From NCBI RefSeq assembly GCF_001267535.1, contig NZ_JRXE01000010.1, positions 115,185 to 151,327 on the forward strand: 36,143 bases of DNA. Direction: 5' to 3'. The notes under the pieces were generated by a model. The model ran no database searches and was not told where the DNA came from. It saw nothing but the letters and a program-made list of their open reading frames with translations. This DNA is from Winslowiella iniecta. GTDB taxonomy: Bacteria > Pseudomonadota > Gammaproteobacteria > Enterobacterales > Enterobacteriaceae. A program made the position numbers and the translations under genes. How positions within the stretch are numbered: the stretch's first letter is position 1; each line of letters opens with the position of its first letter. This document shows, one piece after another, positions 18,692 through 36,143 of the stretch.

Positions 18692-18692
18692 C

Positions 18693-20375: not shown

Positions 20376-20377
20376 AA

Positions 20378-21463
20378 ATGAGTCAACAGGAACAGGCGCA
20401 AGCCTCTGAACGCGAGAGAAACAACAAGTTGCGTATTTTGTCGATTGCTGTCGGCAGCGGCATTGCAATTGTTGGGGTACTGGTGATTTTGTACGCCTGG
20501 CAGCTGTGGCCTTTTACCAGCAGCGCGCAGAGTACCGAAAATGCCTATGTCCGTGGCCAGATCACCTTTATCAGTCCGCAGGTTAATGGCTATGTCACCT
20601 CAGTGAAGGTGCTGGATTTCCAGCCGGTCAGGCAAGGTGAGGTGCTGATGACCATTGATGACCGCATCTACCGTCAGCGCGTTCATCAGGCGCAGGCGCA
20701 GCTGGATATGAAAAAAGCCGCACTGGCGAACAATATTCAGCAGCGTCGTAGCGCCGAAGCGGTGATTGCGCGCAATCAGGCGGCGCTGACCAATGCAAAA
20801 GCGCAGGCAGTAAAAAGCGGGCTGGATCTGAAGCGGGTGGAGAACCTGGTATCAGACGGTTCGTTATCGGTGCGTGAGCGCGATGCGTCGCGCGCCAGTA
20901 ACAGCCAGACCGCCGCCGATGTGCAGCAGGCGAAAGCGACCCTTGATGTGTCACGGCAGGACTTGCAGACGGTGATTGTCAATCGCGCCTCACTGGAAGC
21001 CGATGTGGCTAATGCGCAAGCGGCGCTGGAACTGGCGCAAATCGATCTCGATAATACGCGCATTATTGCGCCACGCGACGGGCAGCTTGGACAGATCGCG
21101 GTGCGGCAGGGGGCTTATGTCACCGCCGGTACGCGCCTGACATCCCTGGTGCCCGCACAACTGTGGGTGATTGCCAATATGAAAGAGACGCAGATGGCGC
21201 GGGTTAAACCGGGCTTGCCGGTCACTTTCCGTGTTGATGCGCTGGATGGCGAACGCTTTAGCGGTGAAGTGGAGTATATCTCACCGGCGGCCGGTTCCGA
21301 GTTCAGTGCCATTTCGCCGGATAACGCCACCGGTAACTTTGTCAAAATTGCCCAGCGCATTCCGGTGCGGATTAAAATCACCAGTGAAAATCATGCGCGG
21401 CTGCGTCCGGGCATGTCGGTGCAACTGACCATCAATACTGATGCTGCTCAGGAGAATCCATAA
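20378..21463 (+). CDS. HlyD-family periplasmic adaptor (EmrA-like)
   Basis: A 361-residue membrane-fusion protein that links the MFS pump to the outer-membrane channel. One N-terminal transmembrane helix (residues 24-46), then a lipoyl half-motif (N-A-Y-V-R-G-Q-I-T-F-I-S-P-Q-V-N-G-Y-V), a long coiled-coil hairpin rich in Ala, Gln and Lys (residues 90-200), the second lipoyl half (D-N-T-R-I-I-A-P-R-D-G-Q-L-G-Q-I-A-V-R-Q-G-A-Y-V) and a beta-barrel ending with L-R-P-G-M-S-V. It starts 2 bases after the pump stop and its TAA overlaps the ATG of the next gene (TAATG). Confidence 0.93.
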   Translation: MSQQEQAQASERERNNKLRILSIAVGSGIAIVGVLVILYAWQLWPFTSSAQSTENAYVRGQITFISPQVNGYVTSVKVLDFQPVRQGEVLMTIDDRIYRQRVHQAQAQLDMKKAALANNIQQRRSAEAVIARNQAALTNAKAQAVKSGLDLKRVENLVSDGSLSVRERDASRASNSQTAADVQQAKATLDVSRQDLQTVIVNRASLEADVANAQAALELAQIDLDNTRIIAPRDGQLGQIAVRQGAYVTAGTRLTSLVPAQLWVIANMKETQMARVKPGLPVTFRVDALDGERFSGEVEYISPAAGSEFSAISPDNATGNFVKIAQRIPVRIKITSENHARLRPGMSVQLTINTDAAQENP

Positions 21464-22845
21464 TGCGCTGGCAACCGCGTATGCTGGCGCTGCTGATACC
21501 GCTGGCGCTGGCAGCCTGTTCCACTGAGGTGGAAAAAGCGCCGGCATCATTGCTGATTCCGGCCGAATGGCGTAACCAGGTCGGCCCGGCCGCCACGCCG
21601 GAAGCCAGCTGGTGGCAGGCGTTTGGCGACAGCAATATGAATCGTCTGGTGGAGCAGTCGCTGCGTAATAACCCGGATATTCTTACCGCGCGTTCACGGG
21701 TCGATCAGTATCGTGCCCAACTGCGCGCCGCACAGGGCGATAACTTGCCGACGCTGGATGCTGGCGTCAGCGCCACGCGCGCGCGCACGCTTTCAGCGGC
21801 AACCGGTTTACCGGGCGATCACACAGTGTTCCAGGGATTGTTGCAGGCGAACTACGATGTCGATATCTGGGGGGCGCGCAGCAGCAGCATTGATGCCGCA
21901 CAATATTCACTGGCCGCGCAGCAGGCAGCCGCCTCAGCAGCGGAACTGACGGTGGCCAGCTCGGTGGCGTCCGGCTATCTGACGCTTTGCGCACTGGATG
22001 AGCAACTGCGCGTCACCGAGGCGACGCTGGCTTCGCGTGAAAATTCATTAAATCTGGCGAAACGGCAGTTTGAAACCGGTTATACCTCACGGCTGGAGTG
22101 GGTGCAGGCGGCGTCGGAGTATCAGACCGCCAAAGCGCAGATACCGCAATTGCAGCATCAGATTACCGAGCAGGAGAACGCGCTGAGTATTCTGGTCGGA
22201 ATGAATCCGCGTCAGATCGCCCGTACACCGCACTTTAACCAGATTAAACCGCAGCAACTGCCAACGTTGCTGCCTTCAGAGCTATTACAGCGGCGGCCGG
22301 ATATTGTACAGGCTGAGCGCCTGCTGCTGGCGGCGGATAAGACGCTACAATCCTCGCAGGCTAATCTGCTGCCGTCACTGAATCTGACCGCTTCCGGTAC
22401 GCTGCAAAGTTCGGTACTGCATCAACTGGTGGATAATCCGTTCCGCCTGTGGAGCGTGGGGGGCAGCGTGCTGGCACCGCTGCTGAATCGCGAAGCCTTA
22501 ACCGCGCAGGTGGATGTGTCGATGGCCTCCCGTAATCAGGCGCTGTACAACTATGAGAAAGTGGTGCGCAATGCCTTTAGCGAGGTGAATAACGATATCG
22601 ATGCAATCCAGCGCACCGGCGAACAGCTGAGTGAACTGGAGAAACAGCAGGCGATCGTCAGTGAAGCGCTGCGCATTGCCCGCAATCGCTATCAGAATGG
22701 CTATGCCTCTTACCTGGATGAACTGGACGCCCAGCGCACGCTGTTCAGCACCCAGCTCAGTGTGGTGCAGTTAAAAAATACGCTGCTGCTGGCGCAGATC
22801 GATCTTTACCGCGCATTGGGCGGCGGCTGGAAGCCTGTGCCATAA
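21463..22845 (+). CDS. Outer-membrane efflux lipoprotein, NodT/RND-OMF family
   Basis: A 460-residue TolC-like channel with a lipoprotein signal peptide: M-R-W-Q-P-R, hydrophobic core, lipobox L-A-L-A-A-C with lipidation at Cys19. The mature part begins with the usual P-x-x-W-x-x-F-x-D repeats (W-W-Q-A-F-G-D-S-N-M-N-R-L-V-E-Q-S-L) and has the two OEP repeats with R-x-x-x-A/L-R-A-A-Q-G-D and L-L-P-S-L-N-L-T-A-S-G. It completes the tripartite efflux machine with the two genes upstream. A terminator follows 7 bases after its stop, so this is the operon end. Confidence 0.93.
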   Translation: MRWQPRMLALLIPLALAACSTEVEKAPASLLIPAEWRNQVGPAATPEASWWQAFGDSNMNRLVEQSLRNNPDILTARSRVDQYRAQLRAAQGDNLPTLDAGVSATRARTLSAATGLPGDHTVFQGLLQANYDVDIWGARSSSIDAAQYSLAAQQAAASAAELTVASSVASGYLTLCALDEQLRVTEATLASRENSLNLAKRQFETGYTSRLEWVQAASEYQTAKAQIPQLQHQITEQENALSILVGMNPRQIARTPHFNQIKPQQLPTLLPSELLQRRPDIVQAERLLLAADKTLQSSQANLLPSLNLTASGTLQSSVLHQLVDNPFRLWSVGGSVLAPLLNREALTAQVDVSMASRNQALYNYEKVVRNAFSEVNNDIDAIQRTGEQLSELEKQQAIVSEALRIARNRYQNGYASYLDELDAQRTLFSTQLSVVQLKNTLLLAQIDLYRALGGGWKPVP

Positions 22846-22887: not shown

Positions 22888-23053
22888 CCTCTGCCAAACC
22901 TGTCCCTGTCACAGTTTTTAAGTAAACGACTGCTCAAAATGTGATCGCTACCGATAAAGCATTCAAGATTACTTGTATGGTAGTAAACCAATGGCTAACT
23001 TTCCTGTACCCATAATAACGCCGCCGAAAGCGCGGTGGCACAACGAGGTTGTT

Positions 23054-24619
23054 ATGATCAATCGTGCGCAGGAAAAGCCTATCGGGCTGAAAAATATGCT
23101 GGCGTATGGCGGCGGGGACGTTTTCGGTGGCGGCAGTTTTGCCGTGCTGGGTCTCTGGCTGATGTTCTTCTATACCACCTACGGCGGGTTAAGTCCGGCG
23201 GAGGCCGGTGCTGTCATTGCTATTGCCCGCCTGCTGGATGCGTTTTTCGATCCACTAATGGGATATGTCACCGATAACTTTTATCGCACAGCTCTTGGTC
23301 AGCGCTTTGGCCGTCGTGGCTTTTTCTTTTTGCTCGGTGCGCCGCTGGTGTTTATCAGCTATGTCGTGATGTGGGTCAGCGATATGGGTTTTGGCTATTA
23401 TCTCGCGACTTACATCCTGTTTTATGCCGCGTATACGCTGGTAATTGTGCCTTACGAAACGCTGGCGGCGGAGATGACCCACGACTTCCGCGTGCGTTCT
23501 AAGCTCACCGGCGTGCGGATGTTCTTCTCCATGGGAGCCGGTATTCTCGCCGCCTGGCTTCCGGGAGCGATTATTGCCGTACTTGGCGAGGACTCCTCCG
23601 CCTCCTTCCTTTATATGGGGATTATTTTCGCCACGCTGTTCGCCATTGTGATTGTTTGCCTCTACCTGTTTACCTGGGAGCGGCCTATCCAGCTGGAGTG
23701 CAAACCGCAAAAAGTTGAATTCCGCCGGGATATGAGCGCGCTGTTTCGTTCGCTGCTGTCGACCTTCAAAGTGCGGACCTTCCGCCAGCATGTCGGCATG
23801 TATCTCGGTGCTTATGTGGCACTCGACGTGCTGGGTGCGGTACTGGCGTACTACATTATTTTTGTGCTGGGCCACAGCACCGTCGATGCCGCCAACGGCA
23901 TGACATTTATGTCGATAGTGCAATTTTTCTGTATCGCCGCATGGATACCGCTGTGCATTCGCATTGGCAATGGCGCGGCTTATAAACTGGCGCAGCTATT
24001 TATGCTGAGCAGCGTGGCGCTGTTTATCAGCATCTATGCCTTTGAACTGCCCTCCACGCTATGGCTGATGTGGCTGGCGGCGCTGATTATGGGGATGGGG
24101 CGTTCCGGTACTCAGTATGTTTGCTGGAATATCTACAGCTTTATCCCTGATGTCGATGAAATGCTGACCGGCGAACGCCGTGAAGGGATCTTTGCCGGGG
24201 TGATGACCTTTGTCCGCAAAGCGGTACAGGCGGTGGCGCTGTTTATCGTCGGCATGGTACTTCAGGCTTATGGTTTTGCCGGTAAGGGCGCGGCACAGCA
24301 ACCCCCCGAAGCGATTCACGGCATTGCGCTGGTGTTTGGCATCGGCGCGGTAGTGTTCCTCGCTGTCGGGCTGTTCAGCTCACTGAAATTCAGTCTGAAT
24401 CGCCATAACCACGCGCTGTTAATTGAGGAGATCCAGCGTCGCAAACAGGGTGGTGCGGCATCTGAGGTCTCGGCAGAAGCCAGAGCGGTGGCCGAAAAAC
24501 TGACCGGCTGGCCTTATCCTCAGTTATGGGGAAACAACCCAATCATGCGCAGCATCGACCCGATGCGCCGCGCCCCAGAGATGCAAAGAGAGATAAAACA
24601 TGATGCGAATAGCCTTTGA
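23054..24619 (+). CDS. GPH-family (glycoside-pentoside-hexuronide) sugar symporter
   Basis: A 521-residue, 12-helix sodium- or proton-coupled sugar transporter of the GPH family (MelB-like). Seen: the N-terminal G-G-G-D-V-F-G-G-G-S-F-A-V-L-G, the cation-site region with D-A-F-F-D-P-L-M-G-Y-V-T-D (residues 55-67) and R-F-G-R-R-G after helix 2, and P-Y-E-T-L-A-A-E-M-T in the middle. The frame is open to 22973, but the ATG at 23054 has a GAGG 6 bases before it and starts at the conserved domain; the upstream part has no similarity. Its stop lies 20 bases inside the next gene, a 2,3-diketo-L-gulonate reductase, so the two share a pathway. The most probable cargo is a hexuronate or an ascorbate-derived acid. 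Confidence 0.88.
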   Translation: MINRAQEKPIGLKNMLAYGGGDVFGGGSFAVLGLWLMFFYTTYGGLSPAEAGAVIAIARLLDAFFDPLMGYVTDNFYRTALGQRFGRRGFFFLLGAPLVFISYVVMWVSDMGFGYYLATYILFYAAYTLVIVPYETLAAEMTHDFRVRSKLTGVRMFFSMGAGILAAWLPGAIIAVLGEDSSASFLYMGIIFATLFAIVIVCLYLFTWERPIQLECKPQKVEFRRDMSALFRSLLSTFKVRTFRQHVGMYLGAYVALDVLGAVLAYYIIFVLGHSTVDAANGMTFMSIVQFFCIAAWIPLCIRIGNGAAYKLAQLFMLSSVALFISIYAFELPSTLWLMWLAALIMGMGRSGTQYVCWNIYSFIPDVDEMLTGERREGIFAGVMTFVRKAVQAVALFIVGMVLQAYGFAGKGAAQQPPEAIHGIALVFGIGAVVFLAVGLFSSLKFSLNRHNHALLIEEIQRRKQGGAASEVSAEARAVAEKLTGWPYPQLWGNNPIMRSIDPMRRAPEMQREIKHDANSL

Positions 24620-25619
24620 AGAGATGAAATCCACCGTAGAGCGCGCACTGCTGAATGCGGGGTTGGCGGCAGAGCAGGCGGCGATCTGCGCGCAAATCCA
24701 TACCGAATCCAGTTGCGATGGGATCTATTCACACGGGCTGAACCGCGTGCCGCGCTTTGTCGAATATTTGCATAAAGGCTGGGTTCGGGCTGATGCGCGG
24801 CCAGAAAAGATTAAAGCGTTGTCAGTGATGGAGATTTGGGATGGTCATCAGGGGCCGGGGATCACCAATGCGCTGCTGGCCATAGAGCGTGCGATGGAAC
24901 TGGCGAAACAGCACGGTATCGGACTGGTAGCGATGCGCAACAGCAGCCACTGGATGCGCGGTGGCAGCTACGGCTGGCGCGCGGCAGAGCAGGGAATGGC
25001 CGCGATTTGCTGGACCAATACTGAATCCTGTATGCCAGCATGGGGTGGCAAAGATACCCGTGTCGGCAATAACCCATTTGTGATGGCTGTACCGGGTAAA
25101 CCCGGCCCGCTGGTGCTGGATATGGCGATGTCACAATACTCGTATGGCAAGTTGCAGGTCACCCGCCTGAAAGGCGAGAGTCTGCCCTATCCCGGCGGTT
25201 ATGATCAGCAGGGCAATCTGACCTGTGAGCCCGGCCCGATAGAAGCCTCAATGCGTATTTTACCGGCGGGCTACTGGAAGGGCTCGGGATTCGCCATTTT
25301 GCTGGATGCCATGGCGGCGTTATTGTCGGCAGGCTATGCCACACCGCAAATCGATCGGTTGGGGCGCGGCAGCGGTACCGGCGCCAGCCAGATCTTTATG
25401 GTCTTTGATCCTGAGCAGCTGGGCGGGGGAGATTTCACTGAACGCATGGCGCAAAGTATTGGCGATTATGTAAACAGTTCTCAACCGGCGGAAGGGATTT
25501 CGGCGGTAACCTGGCCGGGACAGCGTCAGCGCAGCACGCGCGAAGACAATTTACGCCACGGCATCCCGGTCGATGACGGTGTATGGCAGCAGGTGCAACA
25601 ATTAGCCATCGCAGGTTAA
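24600..25619 (+). CDS. dlgD: 2,3-diketo-L-gulonate reductase, YiaK/DlgD type
   Basis: A 339-residue NAD(P)H-dependent reductase of the malate/L-lactate dehydrogenase (Ldh_2) family. It resembles E. coli YiaK (DlgD), which reduces 2,3-diketo-L-gulonate to 3-keto-L-gulonate in L-ascorbate and lyxose-related metabolism. Matching segments: Y-S-H-G-L-N-R-V-P-R-F with the catalytic His (H45), H-W-M-R-G-G-S-Y-G-W-R-A-A-E (118-131), S-Y-G-K-L, I-L-P-A-G-Y-W-K-G-S-G and the C-terminal G-I-P-V-D-D-G-V-W. It starts at the ATGATG of 24600-24605, within the end of the transporter gene. The remaining enzymes of the pathway (kinase, decarboxylase, epimerases) are not in the window, so the product must feed into enzymes elsewhere. 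A related Ldh_2 substrate cannot be excluded. Confidence 0.85.
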   Translation: MMRIAFEEMKSTVERALLNAGLAAEQAAICAQIHTESSCDGIYSHGLNRVPRFVEYLHKGWVRADARPEKIKALSVMEIWDGHQGPGITNALLAIERAMELAKQHGIGLVAMRNSSHWMRGGSYGWRAAEQGMAAICWTNTESCMPAWGGKDTRVGNNPFVMAVPGKPGPLVLDMAMSQYSYGKLQVTRLKGESLPYPGGYDQQGNLTCEPGPIEASMRILPAGYWKGSGFAILLDAMAALLSAGYATPQIDRLGRGSGTGASQIFMVFDPEQLGGGDFTERMAQSIGDYVNSSQPAEGISAVTWPGQRQRSTREDNLRHGIPVDDGVWQQVQQLAIAG

Positions 25620-26039
25620 ATTGCCAGACTCGTGACGTCAGTTAAATAACATTAATCTGTCGGCGTAACGTTGCTTTTATGCCGACAGATCACGCCTGTG
25701 ATCCCGCGCTTCACCTTTCTTAACCTTTGGTGCTATTATGCGCGCGCTTTTCCGCACCGTAACCCATTACAATATCAGTTACCCAGGTTGGCAAAACTCA
25801 TTGGTCAGCGGCGGCTCTTCGCTCAGGCGCATAAATAATCGCTGTTTAACCACGGTTTTTTATTCGATGGTTAATATCGGCTAAAGTTTTTACTTTGTCA
25901 GCCGAAAATGGCTGATTAACCGGGTCAGTTGCTGACAGCAAATTTCTGGCAAATACGGTGGAATCCGATCGTATTAGTTGCTTCCTGGCGTCATGCTGGG
26001 GCTCGCGGCAATGAATGACGTCTGAAGAAGAATAACGGT
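25620..26039. other. Intergenic region with the aryl polyene operon promoter and leader
   Basis: 420 bases without a convincing gene. Near the reductase end, ATCTGTCGGC (25655-25664) and GCCGACAGAT (25681-25690) form a 10-bp stem, and GATCAC-GCCT-GTGATC (25688-25703) overlaps its end; there is no T-run. A 48-codon frame from ATG 25738 lacks a ribosome site. Around 25898-25915 a TCAGCC/GGCTGA hairpin, and at 25925-25935 a TCAG/CTGA hairpin, suggest a structured leader before apeC. Promoter elements are not clear enough to assign; a -10-like TATTAT lies near 25734. Confidence 0.45.
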
Positions 26040-26768
26040 ATGAATCTGCATTTCAATCTCATCGACTGGCAAGCCAGCGCACCAGGGCTGTCTGAGCCAG
26101 CTGACTGGCACCACTGGGCGCAGCACGAGGCGGTCATTGATGCCACACTGCCGCTGGCAAAATGTCGTCAGTTACCGATGATGACCGCCCGCCGCCTGAG
26201 TAGCGGCAGCCGACTCGCCGTCGATTGTGGACTGACACTGATTCGGCGTCAGCAGGTTGATGCGATTGTTTTTACCAGCCGCCACGGTGAACTGGAGCGC
26301 AATTTACGCATTCTCACCACGCTGGCGGAACAGCAGAGTGTATCGCCGACGGATTTTGCCATGTCGGTGCATAATGCGGCGGTGGGCAGCCTGACCATTG
26401 CCGCCGGCGCGCCGATTGTCGCCACCTCGCTGGCTGCCGGTGTCGACTCCTTCCAGCAGGGGCTGGTGGAAGTGGCTGCGCTGCACAGTGCAGGTTATCA
26501 GCAGGTGTTGCTGGTCGATTTCGATGGCAGCGTGCCGGAATGCTACCAACCGTGGTTGGCCGCCGATGCGCCGCGCTGGCCGTATGCCGTTGCGCTGCTG
26601 CTGGCAACCGGCGAGCAGCTGCGTTGCAGCACGGCTGCCGTGAATGAGTCAGCCAGTAGCGCGTGGCCGCAAAGTTTGCAGTTTCTCCATGCGCGTCTGG
26701 CCGCGCGCCGTCAGTTTATTATTCACGGTGCGCAACTTAACTGGTGCTGGGAGTGCGATGATGTCTGA
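26040..26768 (+). CDS. apeC: ApeC: ketosynthase-like chain-length factor of aryl polyene synthesis
   Basis: A 242-residue protein of the short beta-ketoacyl-synthase-like family (Ketoacyl-synt_2), about half the size of a normal ketosynthase. It keeps the N-terminal thiolase-type fold, with V-D-A-I-V-F-T-S-R-H-G-E, the M-S-V-H-N-A-A-V-G segment and A-T-S-L-A-A-G-V-D-S-F in place of the active-site region, where the catalytic Cys is absent. In studied APE systems ApeC pairs with the ketosynthase ApeO, like the KS/CLF pairs of type II polyketide synthases. It opens the operon and overlaps apeD. Gene letters here and below follow the published APE naming as I recall it; the order C to O matches. 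Confidence 0.85.
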   Translation: MNLHFNLIDWQASAPGLSEPADWHHWAQHEAVIDATLPLAKCRQLPMMTARRLSSGSRLAVDCGLTLIRRQQVDAIVFTSRHGELERNLRILTTLAEQQSVSPTDFAMSVHNAAVGSLTIAAGAPIVATSLAAGVDSFQQGLVEVAALHSAGYQQVLLVDFDGSVPECYQPWLAADAPRWPYAVALLLATGEQLRCSTAAVNESASSAWPQSLQFLHARLAARRQFIIHGAQLNWCWECDDV

Positions 26769-27582
26769 TTCCGCGCGCAGTCGCGGCGGCTCGCGCCTGA
26801 ACTACGGCTGGCGATTGTTGATGACCGCCTGCAGTTTTACCCTGTTCAGCGTCGGCGGACTGCTGCTGTCACTGGTGTGGTTTAATCTGCTGCTGCTGTT
26901 TCAGCGCGACCGGCATCGCCGTCGTCAGCTGGCACGTAAAAGCATCTCATTTAGTTTTCGCTGCTTCCTGCGCTTTTGCCGGGCAATGGGCGTTTACGAC
27001 TATCAGATTGACGGTGCCGAAACCTTGAGGGCCGATCGCGGTTGTCTGGTGGTCGCAAACCATCCTTCACTGATCGATTATGTCCTGATCGCCTCGGTGA
27101 TGCCGGATGTGGACTGCCTGGTTAAGGCCGATCTGCAACATAATATCTTCTTTCGCGGCGTGATTCGTGCGGCGGATTACCTGATTAACAGTCAGGCAGA
27201 AACGTTGTTGCCGGAAAGCCGTCAGCGTCTACAGCGCGGCGATACACTGCTGATCTTTCCGGAAGGAACGCGCACTCGTTACGGCGAGCCATTAGAACTT
27301 CAGCGCGGCGCGGCAAATATTGCGGTGCGCTGTGGCTGTGAACTGCGCGTCGTGCATATTACCTGCACCCAACGGATGCTGGATAAGCAGAGCCGCTGGT
27401 ATCAGATTCCGCCGGTAAAACCGGTATTTACTGTCAGCGTCAAACAGCGCATCGACAGCTTACAATTTATGGCGCAGGACGACGCGGCATCGCCGCTGGC
27501 AGCACGTCGTCTGACGCGCCATTTGCAGCAAGTATTAACACCAGAACATTTGGAAACCGGGCATGAACCCATTAAACCTTGA
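26761..27582 (+). CDS. apeD: ApeD: PlsC-type 1-acyl-glycerol-phosphate acyltransferase-like protein
   Basis: A 273-residue membrane-anchored acyltransferase. One transmembrane helix at about 25-47, then the PlsC motif H101-P-S-L-I-D106 (H-x4-D) and F-P-E-G-T-R at 166-171. In APE clusters it is thought to load the lipid anchor or move the polyene to a glycerolipid-like acceptor. The long open frame begins at 26644, but ATGATG at 26758-26763 follows GGGAG and starts at the conserved N-terminus; it overlaps the apeC stop. Its own end overlaps apeE by 20 bases. Confidence 0.85.
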   Translation: MSDSARSRGGSRLNYGWRLLMTACSFTLFSVGGLLLSLVWFNLLLLFQRDRHRRRQLARKSISFSFRCFLRFCRAMGVYDYQIDGAETLRADRGCLVVANHPSLIDYVLIASVMPDVDCLVKADLQHNIFFRGVIRAADYLINSQAETLLPESRQRLQRGDTLLIFPEGTRTRYGEPLELQRGAANIAVRCGCELRVVHITCTQRMLDKQSRWYQIPPVKPVFTVSVKQRIDSLQFMAQDDAASPLAARRLTRHLQQVLTPEHLETGHEPIKP

Positions 27583-27832
27583 AATTAAACAAATGATTAT
27601 CGATACGCTGAATCTTGAAGATATCAGCAGTGATGAGATCGATAGCGAAGCACCGTTGTTTGGTGACGGGCTGGGTCTCGACTCTATCGATGCACTCGAG
27701 TTAGGTCTGGCGGTGAAAAATCGCTACGGAGTGGTACTTTCTGCCGAAAGTGAAGAGATGCGTCAGCATTTCTATTCGGTTGCTTCGCTGGCCGCGTTTA
27801 TTACTGCCCAACGTAGCGCACCGCGCGCCTGA
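27563..27832 (+). CDS. apeE: ApeE: acyl carrier protein
   Basis: An 89-residue ACP. Ser41 in G-L-D-S-I-D-A-L-E-L is the phosphopantetheine attachment site (D-S-I/L motif). The acidic, four-helix pattern is clear. It carries the aryl starter or growing polyene as a thioester; in characterised APE systems the ligase ApeH loads 4-hydroxybenzoate on ApeE. It begins inside apeD. Confidence 0.9.
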   Translation: MNPLNLEIKQMIIDTLNLEDISSDEIDSEAPLFGDGLGLDSIDALELGLAVKNRYGVVLSAESEEMRQHFYSVASLAAFITAQRSAPRA

Positions 27833-27855
27833 TCATTTACCGAAACGAGTGACCT

Positions 27856-28119
27856 ATGAATAAGCAAGAAATCTATCAGGAAGTCAGCGGGCTGCTGGAA
27901 ACCCTGTTTGAAGTGGATGCTGAAGCTATCCAGCCGACGTCGCGTCTGTACGAAGATCTGGAACTCGACAGTATTGATGCCGTCGATATGGTGGTGCATC
28001 TGCAAAAACGCATCGGCCGTAAGATTAAGCCAGAAACCTTTAAAACCGTGCGCACCGTACAGGATGTGGTCGACGCGGTTGACCAGTTGATCCGCGAAGA
28101 CGCATCAACGGCTGATTGA
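27856..28119 (+). CDS. apeF: ApeF: second acyl carrier protein
   Basis: An 87-residue ACP with Ser39 in E-L-D-S-I-D-A-V-D-M as the pantetheine site. Two tandem carrier proteins are a hallmark of APE clusters; by family knowledge ApeF may serve elongation while ApeE serves loading. It follows apeE by 23 bases and its stop overlaps the apeG start (TGATG). Confidence 0.9.
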   Translation: MNKQEIYQEVSGLLETLFEVDAEAIQPTSRLYEDLELDSIDAVDMVVHLQKRIGRKIKPETFKTVRTVQDVVDAVDQLIREDASTAD

Positions 28120-28682
28120 TGCCCTTACTGCTGCGTCTTCTGCCGTGGGTGATCACTTTCGCCTGGCCATTTCTGGTCTGGCTGGCGGTAAGTCATCCGC
28201 AACTGCACGGGCTGCTACCGCTACTGGCGCTGCTGTTTCTGCTGCGCTGGCAGGGAATTCGGAGCAGCAGTGGGGCGTTTGCCCGTTGCGGCCAGCTGCT
28301 GGCCCTGGCCGGGGCGGTATTGTGTCTCGCCAGTTTTCTGCTGCGCGCGCATCAGTTGCTGCTGTGGTATCCGGTGGCGGTTAACCTGGTGATGCTGCTG
28401 TTGTTTGGCGGATCGCTGTTCAGTGCGATGCCGCTGGTGGAGCGTCTGGCTCGGCTGCGTGAGCCGCAGTTGCCGCCGCAGGCGGTGCGCTGGACGCGCC
28501 GGGTGACGCAAATCTGGTGTCTGTTTTTTATCTTTAATGGCAGCGTTGCCACGTTTACCTGTCTGTCCGGAAATCTGCACGCGTGGACGCTATGGAATGG
28601 CTTCATCAGCTATCTGCTGATGGGCACCCTGATGGCGAGCGAATGGCTGCTGCGTCAGCGTAGACTAAGGCGAGTCGGATGA
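28119..28682 (+). CDS. apeG: ApeG: inner-membrane protein of the aryl polyene cluster
   Basis: A 187-residue integral membrane protein with about five or six hydrophobic helices (roughly 5-24, 29-43, 55-75, 79-97, 128-146, 152-172) and an Arg-rich cytoplasmic end. It matches the uncharacterised COG4648-type membrane protein found at this place in APE clusters. ATG 28119 shares bases with the apeF stop, and its TGA overlaps the apeH start. A TTG one codon earlier is unlikely to be used. Function unknown; lipid or polyene handling at the membrane is likely. Confidence 0.8.
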   Translation: MPLLLRLLPWVITFAWPFLVWLAVSHPQLHGLLPLLALLFLLRWQGIRSSSGAFARCGQLLALAGAVLCLASFLLRAHQLLLWYPVAVNLVMLLLFGGSLFSAMPLVERLARLREPQLPPQAVRWTRRVTQIWCLFFIFNGSVATFTCLSGNLHAWTLWNGFISYLLMGTLMASEWLLRQRRLRRVG

Positions 28683-30025
28683 TGACCCGAGCGCTGGCTA
28701 TCAGCGACTGGCTCAGCCCGTCACGCCCGGATTATCTGGTCTGCTGGCATCATGGAGAGCCGCTGACGCTGCATCGGCTGCGTCAGCAGGTTCAGCGCTT
28801 ATGTGCCGTGCTGCTTGTACGGCCAGAGCAGCGCTGGGCGCTCTGTTTTGACGACAGCTATCAGTTTACCGTTGGCTTACTGGCGGCGCTGCATGCCGGA
28901 AAGACCGCGATTATCCCCGGCCACAGTCGCCCGTCGTTATTGCAGGAGCAGTCGGCCACTTTTGATGCTCTGCTGACGGACATTGAGTTAGCGCCGTTCT
29001 GCCCGCAATTAACGCCGGACGCGGTGACGCACTCTGTCGGCGCTGAACTGCCGGCTATCGCACCGGATGCGCAGGTGGTGCTGTTTACCTCCGGTTCGAC
29101 CGGTGAGCCGCGCCAGGTGGTAAAGCCGGTAGCCGGTCTTGATCTTGAAGCGCAGTGGCTGGCTGCGCTGTGGGGAGAACGTTTACGGGATTGTTGTGTG
29201 GTGGCGTCGGTCAGCCATCAGCATCTGTACGGCCTGACATTTCGCATTATGCTGCCGATGGCGCTCGGATTGCCCTTTGCCCGTTATCAGCTGTTGTACA
29301 GCGAGCAACTGAGCGCGCTGCCTGCCGATCGTCCGTGGGCTTTTATCAGCAGCCCGGCATTTTTACGCCGCCTCGATCTCTCCCTGACTGCGCCTTGCTG
29401 CCGCCTGATCGTCTCTGCCGGTGGCATGCTGACGGATCAGGCTGCTGCTGCGGTTGCCAGCTGGTGTCGGCTGCCGGTCGATGAAATTTACGGCAGCACG
29501 GAAACCGGTGTGCTGGCGTGGCGTTCACATGCAGAAGCCAGCCGCTTATGGCAGCCGTTTGCCGGTGTTGAATTCAGTTGCGATCGACAAAGGCGCTGGC
29601 AGGTACAATCGGCGCTGATTGCGCAATCCGACGGCTTGCCGCTGGATGATAAGCTGGAATTTGCCGAGAGCGGCAAATTCCAGCTGTGTGGCCGTCACGA
29701 CCGGGTGGTGAAAATTGAAGATAAACGTATTTCACTGAGTGAAATTGAACGGCGTCTGCTGGCGATTGCTGGCATCACCGATGCGGTGGCGCTGCCGGTG
29801 ACCCGCTACGGCCGTCACGGGATTGGCGTGGTGCTGGTGCTTGACGAACAGCACAGTGCCAACCGGCTGGCGCAGTTAAAACTACAATGGAAGCGGGAGT
29901 TGCAGCGCTGGCTGGAACCGGTGGCCATACCGCGTTTCTGGCGGGTGGTCAATGTGATCCCGCAAAACAGTCAGAGCAAACCTGCCTGGCCGCAAATAGA
30001 GGAGCTGTTTAGTGTTGCCCGTTGA
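28679..30025 (+). CDS. apeH: ApeH: AMP-forming aryl:ACP ligase
   Basis: A 448-residue ANL-family adenylating enzyme, shorter than most. Seen: the P-loop-like V-V-L-F-T-S-G-S-T-G-E-P-R (133-145), the I-Y-G-S-T-E-T-G-V motif near 272, L-C-G-R-H-D-R-V-V-K-I-E-D-K-R-I-S-L hinge and a C-terminal lysine in N-S-Q-S-K-P-A-W-P. In APE synthesis it activates the aryl starter, 4-hydroxybenzoate or a relative, and puts it on the carrier protein. The first ATG overlaps the apeG stop; its end overlaps apeI by 14 bases. Confidence 0.88.
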   Translation: MMTRALAISDWLSPSRPDYLVCWHHGEPLTLHRLRQQVQRLCAVLLVRPEQRWALCFDDSYQFTVGLLAALHAGKTAIIPGHSRPSLLQEQSATFDALLTDIELAPFCPQLTPDAVTHSVGAELPAIAPDAQVVLFTSGSTGEPRQVVKPVAGLDLEAQWLAALWGERLRDCCVVASVSHQHLYGLTFRIMLPMALGLPFARYQLLYSEQLSALPADRPWAFISSPAFLRRLDLSLTAPCCRLIVSAGGMLTDQAAAAVASWCRLPVDEIYGSTETGVLAWRSHAEASRLWQPFAGVEFSCDRQRRWQVQSALIAQSDGLPLDDKLEFAESGKFQLCGRHDRVVKIEDKRISLSEIERRLLAIAGITDAVALPVTRYGRHGIGVVLVLDEQHSANRLAQLKLQWKRELQRWLEPVAIPRFWRVVNVIPQNSQSKPAWPQIEELFSVAR

Positions 30026-30359
30026 ACTGTCACGCAGCCAACACGCCACACAACTGGAGGTGGTACTGCGTATTGATGCCGATCTGTTCTGGTTCCGCGG
30101 CCATTTTCCGCAGCAACCGTTGCTGCCGGGCGTGGCGCAACTGGACTGGGTGATGCACTACGGCATCGGCTGTCTGGCCGCCGGTAAACAGTTCTCGGCG
30201 GTGGAGAATATTAAATTCCAGCAGCCGGTATTGCCGGGCAGCTTGCTGAAGCTGCAACTGGAGTGGCATGAAGCGAAAAATCAGCTTAGCTTCCGCTATC
30301 TGCGGGTCCTGAACGGTGAAGAGTCGGTGACCAGCAGCGGGAAAATTCGCCTGTGCTGA
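30012..30359 (+). CDS. apeI: ApeI: hotdog-fold 3-hydroxyacyl-ACP dehydratase
   Basis: A 115-residue FabZ-like dehydratase. The catalytic His31 sits in F-R-G-H-F-P-Q-Q-P-L-L-P-G-V-A-Q, the classical FabZ/FabA motif. In APE clusters ApeI acts with the second dehydratase ApeP (beyond the window) to form the conjugated double bonds. It starts at GTG 30012, with GAGGAG 6 bases upstream, inside the end of apeH. Confidence 0.85.
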   Translation: MLPVELSRSQHATQLEVVLRIDADLFWFRGHFPQQPLLPGVAQLDWVMHYGIGCLAAGKQFSAVENIKFQQPVLPGSLLKLQLEWHEAKNQLSFRYLRVLNGEESVTSSGKIRLC

Positions 30360-32050
30360 GCGCGGAATTTAAGCCCTGTGTGGTGATCCCCTGCTATAAC
30401 CACGGCGCGACGATGGCGGCGGTGCTGGCACGTCTGGCTTCTTTCAATTTACCGCTGCTGATTGTCGATGATGGCAGCGATGCTGCCACGCAACAACAGC
30501 TGGAAGCGTTGGTTTGTGACGGTGTCACGCTGCTGCGGCTGGCGCAAAACAGTGGCAAAGGGGCGGCGGTTAAATATGGCCTCGAAGCGGCTGCGGCACG
30601 AGGTTACAGCCATGCCTTACAGATTGATGCGGATGGCCAGCACCAGATTGAGGACTGCCCGCGGATGCTTGCAGAGGCGGCGGCCTGGCCTGAGGCGCTG
30701 ATTTCCGGCCAGCCAGTCTATGATGATTCGATACCCAAATCCCGCCTGTACGGCCGTTACGCCACCCATGTCTGGGTGTGGATTGAAACGCTTTCGCTGT
30801 CGTTGAAAGACAGCATGTGCGGTTTTCGCGTCTACCCGCTGGCCGCGACGATGACGCTGCTGCGGCAGGGTTCCCTCGGCAAACGCATGGATTTCGACAC
30901 CGAAATCATGGTGCGGCTCTATTGGGCCGGCACCCCCAGCCGTTTTATTCGCACGCGGGTTACCTATCCGCCGGATGGCCTGTCGCACTTCGACGCGCTG
31001 CGCGATAATTTGCGGATTTCATCGATGCATACCCGACTGTTTTTCGGCATGTTACCGCGTATTCCGTCACTGCTGGCGCGTAAACGTCGGCAGCAGCACT
31101 GGTCAGGCATCAGTGAACGTAAAGGGCTGCACGGAATGCGTTTTATGCTGGCGGTCTACCGTTGGTTTGGCCGTGGGGTGTTTACACTGTTGCTCTGGCC
31201 GGTGATTGCCGTCTACTGGCTGACCGGCCGCAGCCAGCGCCAGGCTTCGCAGCAGTGGTTAAAACAGATTGCCGGTTATGCCCGGCAGCAGCAGGTGCCG
31301 TTACCTGCGCCACTCGGCAGCTATTTTCATTTCCTGCGTTTTGGCGAAGCGATGCTGGATAAAATTGCCAGCTGGCGCGGCGATCTGCGCTGGGGAAAAG
31401 ATATCGATTTTGCGCCGGGAGCCGAAGCGGCGATCACCGGCGCTGCGCCCGGTGGACGGCTGATTCTCGCGTCACATCTCGGTGATATCGAAGCCTGTCG
31501 CGCAATGGCACAGCAGGTCAGCGGACTGGTAATTAATGCGCTGGTCTTTACCGATAACGCGCCGCGTTTTCGTCAGATACAGGAAGAAATTGCGCCCTTA
31601 TCAGGGGTGAATCTGCTGCCGGTCAGCGATATTGGCCCGGAAACCGCCATCCTGTTGCAGCAGAAGCTTGATGCCGGTGAATGGGTGGCGATTGTCGGCG
31701 ATCGCACGGCGATTAACCGTCAGCGCGGCGGCTCCCGTCGCGTGATATGGAGTGAATTTCTTGGCCGCCCGGCACCGTTTCCGCAAGGGCCGTTTATCCT
31801 TGCCGCCGCGTTGCGTTGTCCGGTTTTGCTGATGTTTGCGCTTAAGCAACGCGGCAAACTGCGGATTTACTGCGAACCGTTTGCCGATCCGCTGTTATTG
31901 CCGCGCGCCAGCCGTCAGCAGGCGTTGCAGCAGGCGGTGGATCGCTATGCCGGTCGGCTGGCGCATTATGCGCTGATTTCGCCGCTCGACTGGTTTAATT
32001 TTTTCGATTTCTGGACGCTGCCTGACACGCAACCGGAGAACAAGGAGTGA
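30353..32050 (+). CDS. apeJ: ApeJ: family-2 glycosyltransferase fused to LpxL-type acyltransferase
   Basis: A 565-residue two-domain protein. The N-terminal part (residues 8-240) is a GT2 domain, with V-V-I-P-C-Y-N-H, the V-D-D-G-S loop at 38-42 and D-A-D at 92-94. The region 260-292 has hydrophobic stretches. The C-terminal part (about 300-565) is an LPLAT acyltransferase with H375-L-G-D-I-E380 (H-x4-E) and G-D-R-T around 446. The fusion is a regular feature of APE clusters and points to sugar and acyl transfer to the polyene or its lipid anchor. Start GTG 30353 overlaps the apeI stop. The two halves could alternatively act on separate substrates. Confidence 0.88.
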   Translation: MLSAEFKPCVVIPCYNHGATMAAVLARLASFNLPLLIVDDGSDAATQQQLEALVCDGVTLLRLAQNSGKGAAVKYGLEAAAARGYSHALQIDADGQHQIEDCPRMLAEAAAWPEALISGQPVYDDSIPKSRLYGRYATHVWVWIETLSLSLKDSMCGFRVYPLAATMTLLRQGSLGKRMDFDTEIMVRLYWAGTPSRFIRTRVTYPPDGLSHFDALRDNLRISSMHTRLFFGMLPRIPSLLARKRRQQHWSGISERKGLHGMRFMLAVYRWFGRGVFTLLLWPVIAVYWLTGRSQRQASQQWLKQIAGYARQQQVPLPAPLGSYFHFLRFGEAMLDKIASWRGDLRWGKDIDFAPGAEAAITGAAPGGRLILASHLGDIEACRAMAQQVSGLVINALVFTDNAPRFRQIQEEIAPLSGVNLLPVSDIGPETAILLQQKLDAGEWVAIVGDRTAINRQRGGSRRVIWSEFLGRPAPFPQGPFILAAALRCPVLLMFALKQRGKLRIYCEPFADPLLLPRASRQQALQQAVDRYAGRLAHYALISPLDWFNFFDFWTLPDTQPENKE

Positions 32051-32052
32051 GC

Positions 32053-32475
32053 GTGAATAACGATGCACGATTTTCTGTCGAGCTGGAGCTGACCGTGCCG
32101 TTCCACGATGTGGATGCGATGGGCGTGGTGTGGCACGGCAACTATTTCCGCTATTTTGAGGTGGCGCGTGAAGCGCTGCTGGCGAAATTTAATTACGGCT
32201 ACCGTCAAATGAAAGCATCCGGCTATCTCTGGCCGGTGGTGGATACGCGGGTGAAATATCGCGGCACGCTCAGCTTTGAACAGCGTATTCGGGTGCAGGC
32301 CACCATCGAAGAGTATGAAAATCGTCTGCGTATCGCTTATCAGATCTTTGATGTTGCCAGCGGTAAACGCACCACTACCGGTTATACCATTCAGGTGGCG
32401 GTCGGGATTGCGTCGCAGGAGATGAGTTTTGTTTCGCCTGCGGTACTGTTTGAGCGCCTCGGGGTGACGCCATGA
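32053..32475 (+). CDS. apeK: ApeK: 4-hydroxybenzoyl-CoA thioesterase-like protein
   Basis: A 140-residue hotdog thioesterase of the YbgC/FadM type. The motif D21-A-M-G-V-V-W-H-G-N-Y contains the catalytic aspartate. In APE synthesis it may release the finished chain or clear mis-loaded carriers. The start is GTG 32053: AAGGAG (32042-32047) lies 5 bases upstream. The earlier GTG 32047 would lie within this ribosome site. Its stop overlaps the apeL start (ATGA). Confidence 0.85.
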   Translation: MNNDARFSVELELTVPFHDVDAMGVVWHGNYFRYFEVAREALLAKFNYGYRQMKASGYLWPVVDTRVKYRGTLSFEQRIRVQATIEEYENRLRIAYQIFDVASGKRTTTGYTIQVAVGIASQEMSFVSPAVLFERLGVTP

Positions 32476-33077
32476 GAAAACGATTTCTCTGTGCGCTGGC
32501 GCTGTTTAGCCTGAATGTGCAGGCGGTAACGCTGGATCAACTGCAACAGCGCTTTGCCAGTCAGCCGGTGGTGCGCGCCGATTTTACCCAGCAGCGCGAG
32601 ATTAAAGGGATGGCGCAGCCGCTGAAATCCAGCGGTAAACTGTTAATTGCGCAGGATAAAGGATTGTGGTGGCAGCAGGCGAAGCCATTTCCGTTAACCC
32701 TGGTGCTGGATGAGCAGCGTATGGTGCAGGTAATGAACGGCCAGCCGCCGCAGATTATCACTGCCGACAGCAATCCGCAGATGTTCCAGTTTAACCATCT
32801 GCTGCGCGCACTGTTTCAGGCCGATCGCGCGGTGCTGGAGCAAAATTTTGCCATCGATTTTAGCGCGCTGGCGAATGACCGCTGGCGGATTATCCTGACG
32901 CCAAAAAGCGCTCCGCTGGATAAGTTATTTAATAACATTACCCTGCAAGGGAAAAGCCAGCTGGATGCTATTGAGCTGAATGATAAACAGGGCGATGTGA
33001 CTGATATCCACTTCACCAATCAGCAGCTGACGCCACGGACATTAAGCGAAGATGAAAAACAACGCTTTGTTTTCTGA
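32472..33077 (+). CDS. apeL: ApeL: LolA-like outer-membrane lipoprotein carrier
   Basis: A 201-residue periplasmic protein with a signal peptide (M-R-K-R-F-L-C-A-L-A-L-F-S-L-N-V-Q-A, cleavage after about residue 18). The mature part has the LolA fold pattern: T-L-D-Q-L-Q-Q-R-F-A-S-Q-P-V-V-R-A-D-F-T-Q-Q-R, then S-S-G-K-L-L-I-A-Q-D-K-G-L-W-W-Q. In the APE operon it probably ferries the aryl polyene lipid across the periplasm, replacing LolA. The gene ends 26 bases inside apeM. Confidence 0.88.
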   Translation: MRKRFLCALALFSLNVQAVTLDQLQQRFASQPVVRADFTQQREIKGMAQPLKSSGKLLIAQDKGLWWQQAKPFPLTLVLDEQRMVQVMNGQPPQIITADSNPQMFQFNHLLRALFQADRAVLEQNFAIDFSALANDRWRIILTPKSAPLDKLFNNITLQGKSQLDAIELNDKQGDVTDIHFTNQQLTPRTLSEDEKQRFVF

Positions 33078-35370
33078 GCGTCTGCGCATTGCGGCGGCCG
33101 GCTGGCTCGCCGTCTGCCTGCTGCTGCTGGCGACGCTGGCGTTGCTGCTGCCGCGCGCGACGATCAACAGTAGCGTGCTGGCGCTGTTACCCAAACAGGC
33201 GATGGGCGCGATCCCGGACGATTTACAACAGGGATTTATGCAGCGGCTCGACCGGCAAATGGTCTGGCTGATTAGCCCCGGCGAGCAGGGCGATACGGCG
33301 GTGGCTGACGACTTTCTGCATGCGCTACAGGCGATGCCGGCGCTAAAAAATGTTAAAGGGCCGGTGGATGCGCAACAGCAGCAGCAGTGGGGGCAGTTTG
33401 CCTGGCAGCAGCGTAATGGTCTGATTGATCCGGCGACCCGCCAGCGGCTGGCGGACGGCGGCGGCGCGCAGGCAGACTGGATTCTGGCGCAGCTCTATTC
33501 GGCGTTTGCCGGGGTCAGCGGCAAGGAGCTGGCGAACGATCCGTTACTGCTGGTGCGCGGCGCTCAACTGGCGATGCAGCAGAATGCCAGCCAGCTGACG
33601 CTGCGCGATGGCTGGCTGATGGCGCACGATAAACAGGGGCGTCAGTGGTATTTTATCCATGGTGAACTGGCGAGCAATTCGTTTGATATGCAGCAGAGTC
33701 ATGCGGTGGTGCAGCAGTTACACTCCCTGGCCTCCCGCCTGCAACAACAGTATCCCGACACCCGGCTGCTGACACGCGGCACGGTGTTATACAGCGATTT
33801 TGCCAGTCAGCAGGCGCGCCATGATGTCGCGACGCTGGGCGTAGCGACGGTAATCGGCGTACTGCTGCTGGTATTTTCGGTGTTTCGTTCGCCGCGTCCG
33901 TTGCTGTTATGTGCGCTGTCGGTCTCGATTGGCGCGCTGGCCGGTACCACCATCACCTTGTTGTGCTTCGGCGAGCTGCATCTGATGACGCTGGTAATGA
34001 GCATCAGTATTGTCGGCATCTCGGCGGACTATACCCTCTATTACCTGACCGAACGCATGGTGCACGGTGCCGATGTCAGCGCGCAGCAGAGCTTGCAAAA
34101 AGTGATGCCCGCGCTGCTGCTGGCGCTGGCCACCGCCGCCATCGCTTATCTGATGATGTTATTCGCGCCCTTCCCTGGACTGCGCCAGCTGGCGGTATTT
34201 GCCGCCAGTGGCCTGACCGCCTCTTGTCTGACGGTGGTCTGCTGGTATCCGTGGCTGGTGCGCGGTTTGCCGGTGCGTCCGGTACCGGCGATGTTGCTGA
34301 TGGCGCGCTGGCTGGCGGCCTGGCGGCGTCAGCGCTGGCTGAAATTCGGCTTACCGCTGCTGGTGGCGCTGATTTCTGTCTCCGGCCTGGCGATGCTGAA
34401 GGTAGATGACGATATTTCGCAGTTGCAGGCGCTGCCGCCGCAGCTGTTGCAGCAGGATGCGCAACTGACGCAGCTCACCGGGCAAAGCGCCGATCAGACC
34501 TGGTTTATGGTGTGGGGTAACAGCGCGGAACAGACGCTGCAACGGCTGGAAGCCCTGGCTCCGCAACTGCAACATGCACAGCAGCAGCGGTCGCTGACCT
34601 CCTGGCGTCTGCTGCCGCTGGCCTCGCAGGCGCAGCAGCAACGTGATGTAGCGCTGCTGAAACAGGCTGCACCCACGGTGATGGCGCAGCTCCGGCAGGC
34701 GGGTGTTGAGATCGCCGAACCTGACCTGCGCGCAATGACGGTGACGCCAGAAGCGTGGCAGCGTAGCCCGAACAGTGAAGGCTGGCGGCTGTTATGGCTG
34801 AGTCTGCCAAATGGCCGCAGTGGCGCGCTGGTGCCGGTCAGCGGCGTGCAGAACAGTGCGCAACTGGCAGAGCTGGCGCAGGCGCTGCCGGGCGTGGCGT
34901 GGATCGATCGCAAAAGTACCTTTGACCAGTTGTTCAGTTTTTACCGCGTGATGCTCGGCTGGCTGTTACTGGCGGCGCTGGCGTTTATCGCCCTCAGCTA
35001 TATGCTGCGGCTGGGTATCCGGCGCGGTCTGGTCAGCGTGCTGCCTTCAGTATTATCTCTCGGGGGCGGGCTGGCGGCGCTGGCATTCAGCGGTCATTCG
35101 CTAAATCTGTTTTCACTGCTGGCTCTGGTACTGGTGCTGGGAATTGGCATCAACTACACGCTGTTTTTCAGTAATCCGCGTGGTACGCCGATCACCTCGC
35201 TGCTGGCGGTATCGCTGGCGATGAGCACGACGTTACTGACGCTGGGGATGCTGGTATTCAGCCAGACGCAGGCTATCAGCAGCTTTGGCATTGTGTTATG
35301 CAGCGGTATTTTTACCGCCTTTTTATTGGCACCGCTGGCGTTACCCGAATCCAGAAGGAAAAAACGATGA
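33052..35370 (+). CDS. apeM: ApeM: MMPL/RND-type exporter
   Basis: A 772-residue inner-membrane protein of the RND/MMPL family. Topology: helix 1 at about 12-33, periplasmic loop to about 255, five helices (260-410), a helix near 435-452 and a second periplasmic loop (455-620), and five closing helices to 768. The sequence I-S-I-V-G-I-S-A-D-Y-T-L-Y-Y near 320 and the G-I-G-I-N-Y-T-L-F-F segment near 700 are the paired central motifs of this family. It should take the polyene product from the inner membrane and hand it to the LolA-like carrier. The Gln-rich loop 470-540 is repetitive. Its TGA overlaps the apeN start. Confidence 0.9.
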   Translation: MKNNALFSERLRIAAAGWLAVCLLLLATLALLLPRATINSSVLALLPKQAMGAIPDDLQQGFMQRLDRQMVWLISPGEQGDTAVADDFLHALQAMPALKNVKGPVDAQQQQQWGQFAWQQRNGLIDPATRQRLADGGGAQADWILAQLYSAFAGVSGKELANDPLLLVRGAQLAMQQNASQLTLRDGWLMAHDKQGRQWYFIHGELASNSFDMQQSHAVVQQLHSLASRLQQQYPDTRLLTRGTVLYSDFASQQARHDVATLGVATVIGVLLLVFSVFRSPRPLLLCALSVSIGALAGTTITLLCFGELHLMTLVMSISIVGISADYTLYYLTERMVHGADVSAQQSLQKVMPALLLALATAAIAYLMMLFAPFPGLRQLAVFAASGLTASCLTVVCWYPWLVRGLPVRPVPAMLLMARWLAAWRRQRWLKFGLPLLVALISVSGLAMLKVDDDISQLQALPPQLLQQDAQLTQLTGQSADQTWFMVWGNSAEQTLQRLEALAPQLQHAQQQRSLTSWRLLPLASQAQQQRDVALLKQAAPTVMAQLRQAGVEIAEPDLRAMTVTPEAWQRSPNSEGWRLLWLSLPNGRSGALVPVSGVQNSAQLAELAQALPGVAWIDRKSTFDQLFSFYRVMLGWLLLAALAFIALSYMLRLGIRRGLVSVLPSVLSLGGGLAALAFSGHSLNLFSLLALVLVLGIGINYTLFFSNPRGTPITSLLAVSLAMSTTLLTLGMLVFSQTQAISSFGIVLCSGIFTAFLLAPLALPESRRKKR

Positions 35371-35936
35371 AATTAGCGTGGATGGCGATGCTGGCCGCCT
35401 TGCTGCTCAGCGGCTGCGCCAGTCACAGTGACCCGACGCGCCCGCAGGCGTGGTTGAAACCCGGGGTAAAAGTGACGCTACCCGCGCCAGGCATAGAACC
35501 GCCGTTTAACCAGCAGCAATTGTTAACCGGTCACTTTAAAAGCAAACAGCAGTCACTGCTGGTGATGCTGAGTGCTGATCCGCAGCAGCTGACGCTGGTC
35601 GGGCTGTCATCCCTTGGCATTCGTTTGTTCCGCGTCAGTTATGACAGCAAAGGCATTGAGACTGAACAATCGATCGCGCTGCCGGAAATGCCGCCCGCCA
35701 GCCAGGTTCTGGCGGATATTATGCTCAGCCACTGGCCGCTGACGGCGTGGCAAAAGCAGCTACCGGCAGGCTGGACGCTGCGTGATATTGACGACCGCCG
35801 CCAGCTGCGTGATGCCAACGGCAAGCTGATTACCGAGATCCGTTACCTGATGCGCGGCGAGCAGCGTCAGCCGATTAGCGTGCAGCAATTTGCGTTTGGT
35901 TATCAGATCCTTATTCAACAACTGGATGCCTCATGA
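35367..35936 (+). CDS. apeN: ApeN: DUF3261-type outer-membrane lipoprotein
   Basis: A 189-residue lipoprotein: M-K-L-A-W-M-A-M-L-A-A-L-L-L-S-G-C with the lipobox L-L-S-G-C and Cys17 as the lipidated residue. The mature part fits the DUF3261 family that stands in APE and flexirubin clusters, and probably receives the product at the outer membrane, as LolB does for lipoproteins. The frame is open upstream to 35298 but the ATG at 35367 gives the signal peptide and overlaps the apeM stop (ATGA). The same overlap joins it to apeO. Confidence 0.8.
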   Translation: MKLAWMAMLAALLLSGCASHSDPTRPQAWLKPGVKVTLPAPGIEPPFNQQQLLTGHFKSKQQSLLVMLSADPQQLTLVGLSSLGIRLFRVSYDSKGIETEQSIALPEMPPASQVLADIMLSHWPLTAWQKQLPAGWTLRDIDDRRQLRDANGKLITEIRYLMRGEQRQPISVQQFAFGYQILIQQLDAS

Positions 35937-36143
35937 TCTACTTCTCCGCCGTGGGCATGCTGAACGCGCTGGGTAACTCGCTGGATGATATTGCCGCTAA
36001 CCTGGTGCGTGGTTATGCGCCTGGCATGCGGCCTGCTGCCGACTGGCTGACCGGCGGGCGCAGCTGCTGGATTGGTCATGTTGATGACGAACTGCCGCCG
36101 CTACCGGCTGAACTGGCACCGCATAACAGCCGCAATAACCGCC
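35933..36143 (+). CDS. apeO: ApeO: beta-ketoacyl-ACP synthase, first 70 codons (3' end outside window)
   Basis: The ATG overlaps the apeN stop. The visible 70 residues, M-I-Y-F-S-A-V-G-M-L-N-A-L-G-N-S and later I-G-H-V-D-D-E-L-P-P-L and H-N-S-R-N-N-R, fit the N-terminus of the FabB/FabF-like ketosynthase that follows DUF3261 in APE clusters. The active-site cysteine is beyond the window. It should form the working elongation pair with ApeC. Confidence 0.85.
   Translation, partial: MIYFSAVGMLNALGNSLDDIAANLVRGYAPGMRPAADWLTGGRSCWIGHVDDELPPLPAELAPHNSRNNR

Follow-up and report, generated by a model that had tools for sequence, protein, structure and literature searches.

The window analysed here, a stretch of 36,143 nucleotides of Winslowiella iniecta, corresponds to bases 115185–151327 of contig C10; the contig is 151327 bases long, and the end of the window is thus the end of the contig. 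Between positions 26040 and 36143, on the forward strand, it carries the genes apeC, apeD, apeE, apeF, apeG, apeH, apeI, apeJ, apeK, apeL, apeM and apeN and the start of apeO, in this order. Aryl polyenes (APE) are yellow membrane pigments, protective against oxidative damage in other bacteria. The features of the locus are the following:

25710..25739, + strand, predicted operon promoter: TTCACC, 18-base spacer and TG-preceded TATTAT (consensus scan)
25755..25841, + strand, decayed 3' remnant of the lipoprotein gene apeA (similarity to apeA of the same-genus genome G018)
26040..26768, + strand, apeC, ketosynthase chain-length factor (PF13723, 2.4e-66; Xenorhabdus doucetiae ApeC chain 6qsp_B, 2.2e-83)
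26758..27582, + strand, apeD, PlsC-type acyltransferase (PF01553, 3.4e-18; start read from the bases)
27563..27832, + strand, apeE, acyl carrier protein with LDSI serine motif (PF00550; NF006617 above cut-off)
27856..28119, + strand, apeF, acyl carrier protein with LDSI serine motif (PF00550; NF003757 above cut-off)
28116..28682, + strand, apeG, membrane protein (place, and 49–75% identity to the same gene in relatives)
28679..30025, + strand, apeH, aryl:ACP ligase (PF00501, 1.8e-14; 49–63% identity to relatives, syntenic place)
30012..30359, + strand, apeI, hotdog dehydratase (PF22818 ApeI-like, 2e-31; 3esi_A, 1.1e-37; 6qsr_A, 1.4e-33)
30353..32050, + strand, apeJ, family 2 glycosyltransferase with acyltransferase-like C-terminus (PF00535, 2.8e-18)
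32047..32475, + strand, apeK, thioesterase (PF13279, 1.3e-15)
32472..33077, + strand, apeL, LolA-like carrier (PF19574, 2.1e-12)
33052..35370, + strand, apeM, MMPL/RND exporter (PF03176, 1.4e-10)
35367..35936, + strand, apeN, DUF3261 lipoprotein with LSGC lipobox (PF11659, 7.4e-40; lipobox read from the sequence)
35933..36143, + strand, apeO, first 70 ketosynthase codons, truncated where the contig stops (NF006618, 3e-11; as a fragment it scores well below the cut-off)

The open reading frames from apeC to apeN are intact, and apeO is represented by the first 70 of its approximately 390 codons. Consecutive genes overlap at 11 of the 12 junctions from apeC to apeO, the sole gap being the 23 bases between apeE and apeF; with apeD read from the ATG at 26758, the junction distances are -11, -20, +23, -4, -4, -14 and -7 from apeC/apeD to apeI/apeJ, and -4, -4, -26, -4 and -4 from apeJ/apeK to apeN/apeO. 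The start of apeD lies at 26758 or 26761 (26644 for the long open reading frame), that of apeG at TTG 28116 or ATG 28119, and that of apeN at 35367. The initial annotation had described thirteen genes, apeC to apeO, on one strand in the known order and mostly with overlapping stops and starts, a description that is confirmed by the reading frames, gene families, relatives and measured overlaps.

Pfam and NCBIfam back the named function of all ape genes in the window with two exceptions, apeG and the part of apeJ that encodes the C-terminal half. The product of apeG matched neither a Pfam nor an NCBIfam family; its identity is supported by synteny, that of the others by family and structure matches. 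The C-terminal part of ApeJ reached 19 bits in NCBIfam, below the cut-off, without a Pfam match, and the PDB structure search with ApeJ gave no result. APE proteins were among the top three PDB matches, namely 6qsp (ApeC and ApeO), 6qsr (ApeI and ApeP), 7f27 (ApeR) and 7caw (ApeQ); other matches were 3esi for ApeI, 4ewg for ApeR, and 4iiu and 7czc for ApeQ. The entry 6qsr is presumably the structure of an APE-pathway protein. According to the publications, 6QSP is ApeO–ApeC of X. doucetiae and 7F27 is ApeR of Acinetobacter baumannii (PMC8358021), and 7CAW is ApeQ of A. baumannii (PMC8041823).

The initial annotation considered the right end of the operon to be missing, and the window does stop inside apeO. 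The continuation was found at the end of contig C47, on the minus strand, where 167 codons of the C-terminal part of ApeO are followed by apeP (158 aa; PF22817, 4.7e-48), apeQ (243 aa) and apeR (409 aa). The three genes proposed for a downstream check are thus all present, and the remaining ketosynthase, ketoreductase and dehydratase are not absent from the assembly, since they are encoded on C47. On the 3' side of apeR, C47 shares the next four genes with G018 and then diverges; these four shared genes tie C47 to C10.

The two ApeO pieces match residues 1–70 (90% identity) and 224–388 (84%) of the uninterrupted ApeO of G018. For residues 71–223 of the latter, the remaining matches in the assembly were 26–39% identical and correspond to other ketosynthases; no contig contains the middle of apeO, a stretch of about 153 codons in which the active-site cysteine is expected. 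As the pieces begin 669 bases apart in G018, G031 and G020, approximately 459 bases are unassembled, and an insertion or deletion may lie inside them. No overlap was found between the contig ends, and the assembly contains no repeat of the last 144 bases of C10 (best match apart from the self-match 36 bases, E 0.007). An insertion sequence is unlikely to have caused the break, given that the C10 end has no repeat, C47 ends within apeO and no insertion-sequence DNA was seen. Genome G003 lacks apeN–apeR and keeps only 65% of apeM, at a run of Ns in the scaffold beyond which unrelated genes follow; its missing genes are taken as an effect of assembly and not as a loss. Such gaps therefore arise without biology. 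Directly after apeR, C47 (L045, 5202–10369) carries FhuD/FhuB-like genes and a TonB-dependent receptor gene, recognized by eye, whose homologues are in the same order in G018 and G020.

The features that characterize an APE cluster were found in the two contigs: the ligase ApeH, predicted to act on an aryl substrate, the dehydratases ApeI and ApeP, the reductase ApeQ, a second ketosynthase (ApeR), two acyl carrier proteins with the phosphopantetheine serine, and the Lol/RND-like export genes apeL, apeM and apeN. The pair of ketosynthase and chain-length factor is present as well, ApeC matching 6qsp_B and the C-terminal part of ApeO matching 6qsp_A strongly, with the N-terminal part of ApeO assigned to NF006618. 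Position 185 of ApeQ is a leucine; it aligns with the leucine that has been tied to recognition of the aryl group in ApeQ of A. baumannii (PMC8041823). Two further features differ: ApeA is represented by a remnant only and ApeB is absent.

The 420 bases between the reductase gene and apeC contain no apeA open reading frame. A consensus scan of the region gave three promoter sites against 0.7 expected. The 65 bases at 25691–25755 are 88% identical to the promoter region of G018 (score 49; the highest among 300 shuffles was 20), and the promoter core TGCTATTAT is present upstream in 11 of 14 same-genus loci, the exceptions being G010, G029 and G030, the last of which carries a one-base variant. 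G031 and G020 match only the promoter part of the interval (scores 31 and 33), and the other ten apeA stretches reach at most 22 anywhere in it. The operon is probably transcribed from this one promoter, at about 25710–25739.

In the remnant, the 5' part of apeA including start and lipobox is gone, and there is a second, internal deletion. Compared alone with apeA of G018, it scored 29 (61 bases, 74%) and 24 (36 bases, 83%), against a maximum of 18 in 1000 shuffles; among the other 12 apeA stretches the best was G022 with 14, below the shuffle maximum, so that only G018 exceeded the control. A protein search placed ApeA residues 81–108 at the same spot (46%, E 0.47), which alone is not significant. 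Searching the assembly with ApeA of G018 gave nothing better than E 0.086; the suggestion that apeA might lie elsewhere is therefore replaced by a decayed copy in front of apeC.

Upstream, the window contains at 22973–25619 a GPH-type symporter and 3-dehydro-L-gulonate 2-dehydrogenase pair, located between an efflux operon and apeC. The initial annotation was right that a sugar-acid reductase precedes apeC; G031 and G020 have the same pair in the same place, and there an intact apeA comes next. G018, a closer relative, has an intact apeA between efflux operon and apeC, and the pair is absent from this place. The symporter–reductase pair was rejected as part of the operon because it lies upstream of the predicted promoter. 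The efflux operon itself (18257–22845) comprises a MarR regulator, an MFS pump, an HlyD-like adaptor and an outer-membrane factor. A functional link between it and APE was also rejected: 32 of the 36 genomes of the genus have its MFS gene (E at most 1e-100), and 18 of these 32 lack ApeH; the operon is thus a chromosomal neighbour.

The initial annotation also left room for apeB, the gene of the head-group methyltransferase, elsewhere, but searching the assembly yielded only one ApeB match, a methyltransferase on contig C8 with 27% identity. Within the genus, apeB is present in G029 and absent from the other 13 of the 14 loci, the window locus included. It also occurs in E. coli, in 5 of the 32 named loci and in two distant members of the order, which have apeA and apeB upstream on the other strand. 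From this sparse occurrence apeB is regarded as accessory and not defining. Given its absence, the head group, and hence the APE product of this locus, is probably unmethylated.

The search for apeA was positive in 11 of the 14 loci of the genus and in 24 of the 32 named ones; a locus was scored as lacking it when tblastn gave no match at E 1e-4 in the 3.5 kb preceding apeC. Since it was not found upstream of apeC in 10 other loci of the 48 in the tree either, it is likewise considered accessory. The same-genus loci G028 and G030 lack it as well; both keep the promoter-like motif (with one base changed in G030) and resemble G003 and G022 at the apeA 3' end and in the apeC leader. The remnants show loss of apeA in this genus. 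The tree was a quick one, built on six proteins and with long-branch warnings; it left out L043, which is broken, and G013, whose contig starts inside apeD. It requires at least six changes of the apeA state, which may be gains or losses, and well-supported branches force five of these. The sister of the window locus is G018, with apeA present; the window is nearest to the same-genus loci and, among the named ones, groups with the Erwiniaceae.

A genome scan found apeC–apeR complete and in order in 31 of 32 named relatives, with one or two ape genes in more than one reading frame in L018 and L041. The exception is L043 (7692–16650), from Pantoea sp. Eser, a stink-bug symbiont, whose ape cluster is broken: apeH, apeJ, apeL and apeM are each split over more than one reading frame, and apeP–apeR were not found in the stretch. 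In E. coli, the apeO–apeR region was matched in 809 of 5426 complete genomes, in 808 of them over at least 80% of its length. ApeH (E at most 1e-119) was detected in 15 of the 36 same-genus genomes among 60 searched. In all six genomes examined out of the 21 without ApeH, the same efflux operon comes before the gene block found beyond APE in G018 and G022, whole or in part, which indicates a module coming and going at one place. As exceptions, the efflux MFS gene is missing from G010 and has another genomic location in G029.

All 17 ape pieces are stop-free, and their dN/dS values, computed with apeD from 26752, two codons before its start, are 0.02–0.24 against G018 and 0.05–0.25 against G031, which argues, for the assembled parts, that the pathway works. 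These data bear on the reading that the cluster is decaying, with the gap in apeO hiding a real insertion or deletion and no pigment being made. That apeA is already a remnant, that C10 and C47 both end inside apeO with 153 codons missing from its middle, and that L043 offers a clear example of a broken cluster fit this reading, but we consider it quite improbable, since the other genes, apeP, apeQ and apeR included, are intact and under low dN/dS, no insertion-sequence DNA was seen at the contig ends, a simple insertion would not be expected to take away 459 bases, and the G003 scaffold is also interrupted inside the ape cluster, by Ns. Least plausible of all is a related but different product, a type II polyene that is non-aryl or has another starter and comes from enzymes of the same kinds: the ketoreductase of ishigamide, a non-APE polyene, also has a leucine at the ApeQ 185 position, and dN among the 17 pieces is highest for ApeH (0.141 and 0.206 against the two relatives), but the ApeI-like and ApeP-like families, the full synteny from apeC to apeR with the E. 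coli cluster and the presence of UbiC all speak against it.

The locus is thus very probably a standard APE operon of enterobacterial type, apeC–apeR, cut by an assembly gap in apeO, with apeA as a remnant and apeB absent. The proposal of an APE biosynthesis and export operon is supported by the gene families, by their order and by apeP–apeR on C47, and the apeC–apeR cluster is an ordinary example of a common, well-known family. Among the closest known systems is the APE cluster of E. coli CFT073 (apeA–apeR), which has apeC–apeR in the same order and orientation (Johnston et al. 2021, PMC8253772). The proteins of E. coli 2013C-4282, the strain compared directly, are 48–83% identical to the Ape proteins of this genome; with respect to E. 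coli, the window locus lacks apeB, has only a remnant of apeA and has different chromosomal neighbours. The X. doucetiae cluster, compared through structures and literature, includes a methyltransferase according to the same publication (PMC8253772), whereas the window locus has none. Within the genus, the G018 cluster has 77–98% identity from apeC to apeR, the same upstream efflux operon and the same next four downstream genes.

In E. coli 2013C-4282 apeR is followed by acpT. Here, no phosphopantetheinyl transferase (PPTase) gene adjoins the 3' side of apeR, a point counted against the standard-operon reading; the absent or weak family matches of ApeG and of the ApeJ C-terminal half, the unassembled middle of apeO and the lack of both apeA and apeB weigh on the same side. 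The genome encodes four PPTase-family proteins, two of which were compared with E. coli AcpT: that on C25 gave a match of 31% (E 1.7e-13) and that on C34 none. A second ketosynthase-rich cluster, which is not part of APE, is located on contig C18 (L046, 5657–19000); it encodes a ketoreductase, a FabA-like dehydratase, a GcvT-like protein, a fused double ketosynthase, an additional ketosynthase, a protein of 354 aa that matched no Pfam family, another SDR and a LolA-like protein. Inspection by eye adds genes for an FtsX-type permease and an ABC ATPase, and a PPTase-family protein is encoded nearby (C18:61267).

By analogy with work on E. coli, Xenorhabdus and Acinetobacter, 4-hydroxybenzoate, made by the UbiC that the genome encodes, would be loaded onto an acyl carrier protein by ApeH and extended by the ApeO–ApeC ketosynthase pair and ApeR. 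The conjugated double bonds would result from reduction by ApeQ and dehydration by ApeI/ApeP. ApeK, ApeD and ApeJ would mediate release and attachment to a lipid, and ApeG, ApeL, ApeM and ApeN transport to the outer membrane, where the pigment may quench oxidants. The scheme drawn from E. coli and Xenorhabdus has ApeH for loading, ApeO–ApeC and ApeR for condensation, ApeQ for reduction, ApeI and ApeP for dehydration, ApeD and ApeJ for attachment and ApeL, ApeM and ApeN for export (PMC8253772).

According to the same publication, deletion of apeA in E. coli leaves near wild-type pigment but stops at immature APE acids, with no mature APE lipid, and deletions of apeB and apeK also stop at these acids (PMC8253772). 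Since loss of either apeA or apeB stops short of the mature lipid in E. coli, a locus without both may give a different end product. A literature search, with subscription journals mostly outside it, found nothing on clusters without apeA or apeB. Tentatively, and with more doubt than confidence, the lineage could be taken to carry a trimmed APE system, in which the head group stays unmethylated and attachment to the lipid naturally bypasses ApeA (and ApeB). The recurrence of apeA changes across enterobacteria, together with deletions that in this genus spare the promoter or its core, suggests that the pigment is maintained by selection and ApeA given up, or that free APE acids suffice. In view of the E. 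coli deletion results, a locus that has naturally lost apeA and has no apeB is worth a direct chemical test. The window locus and its sister G018 constitute a natural experiment: they share apeC–apeR, both lack apeB and only G018 keeps apeA, and a comparison of natural isolates with and without apeA would tell whether ApeA is needed to anchor the pigment.
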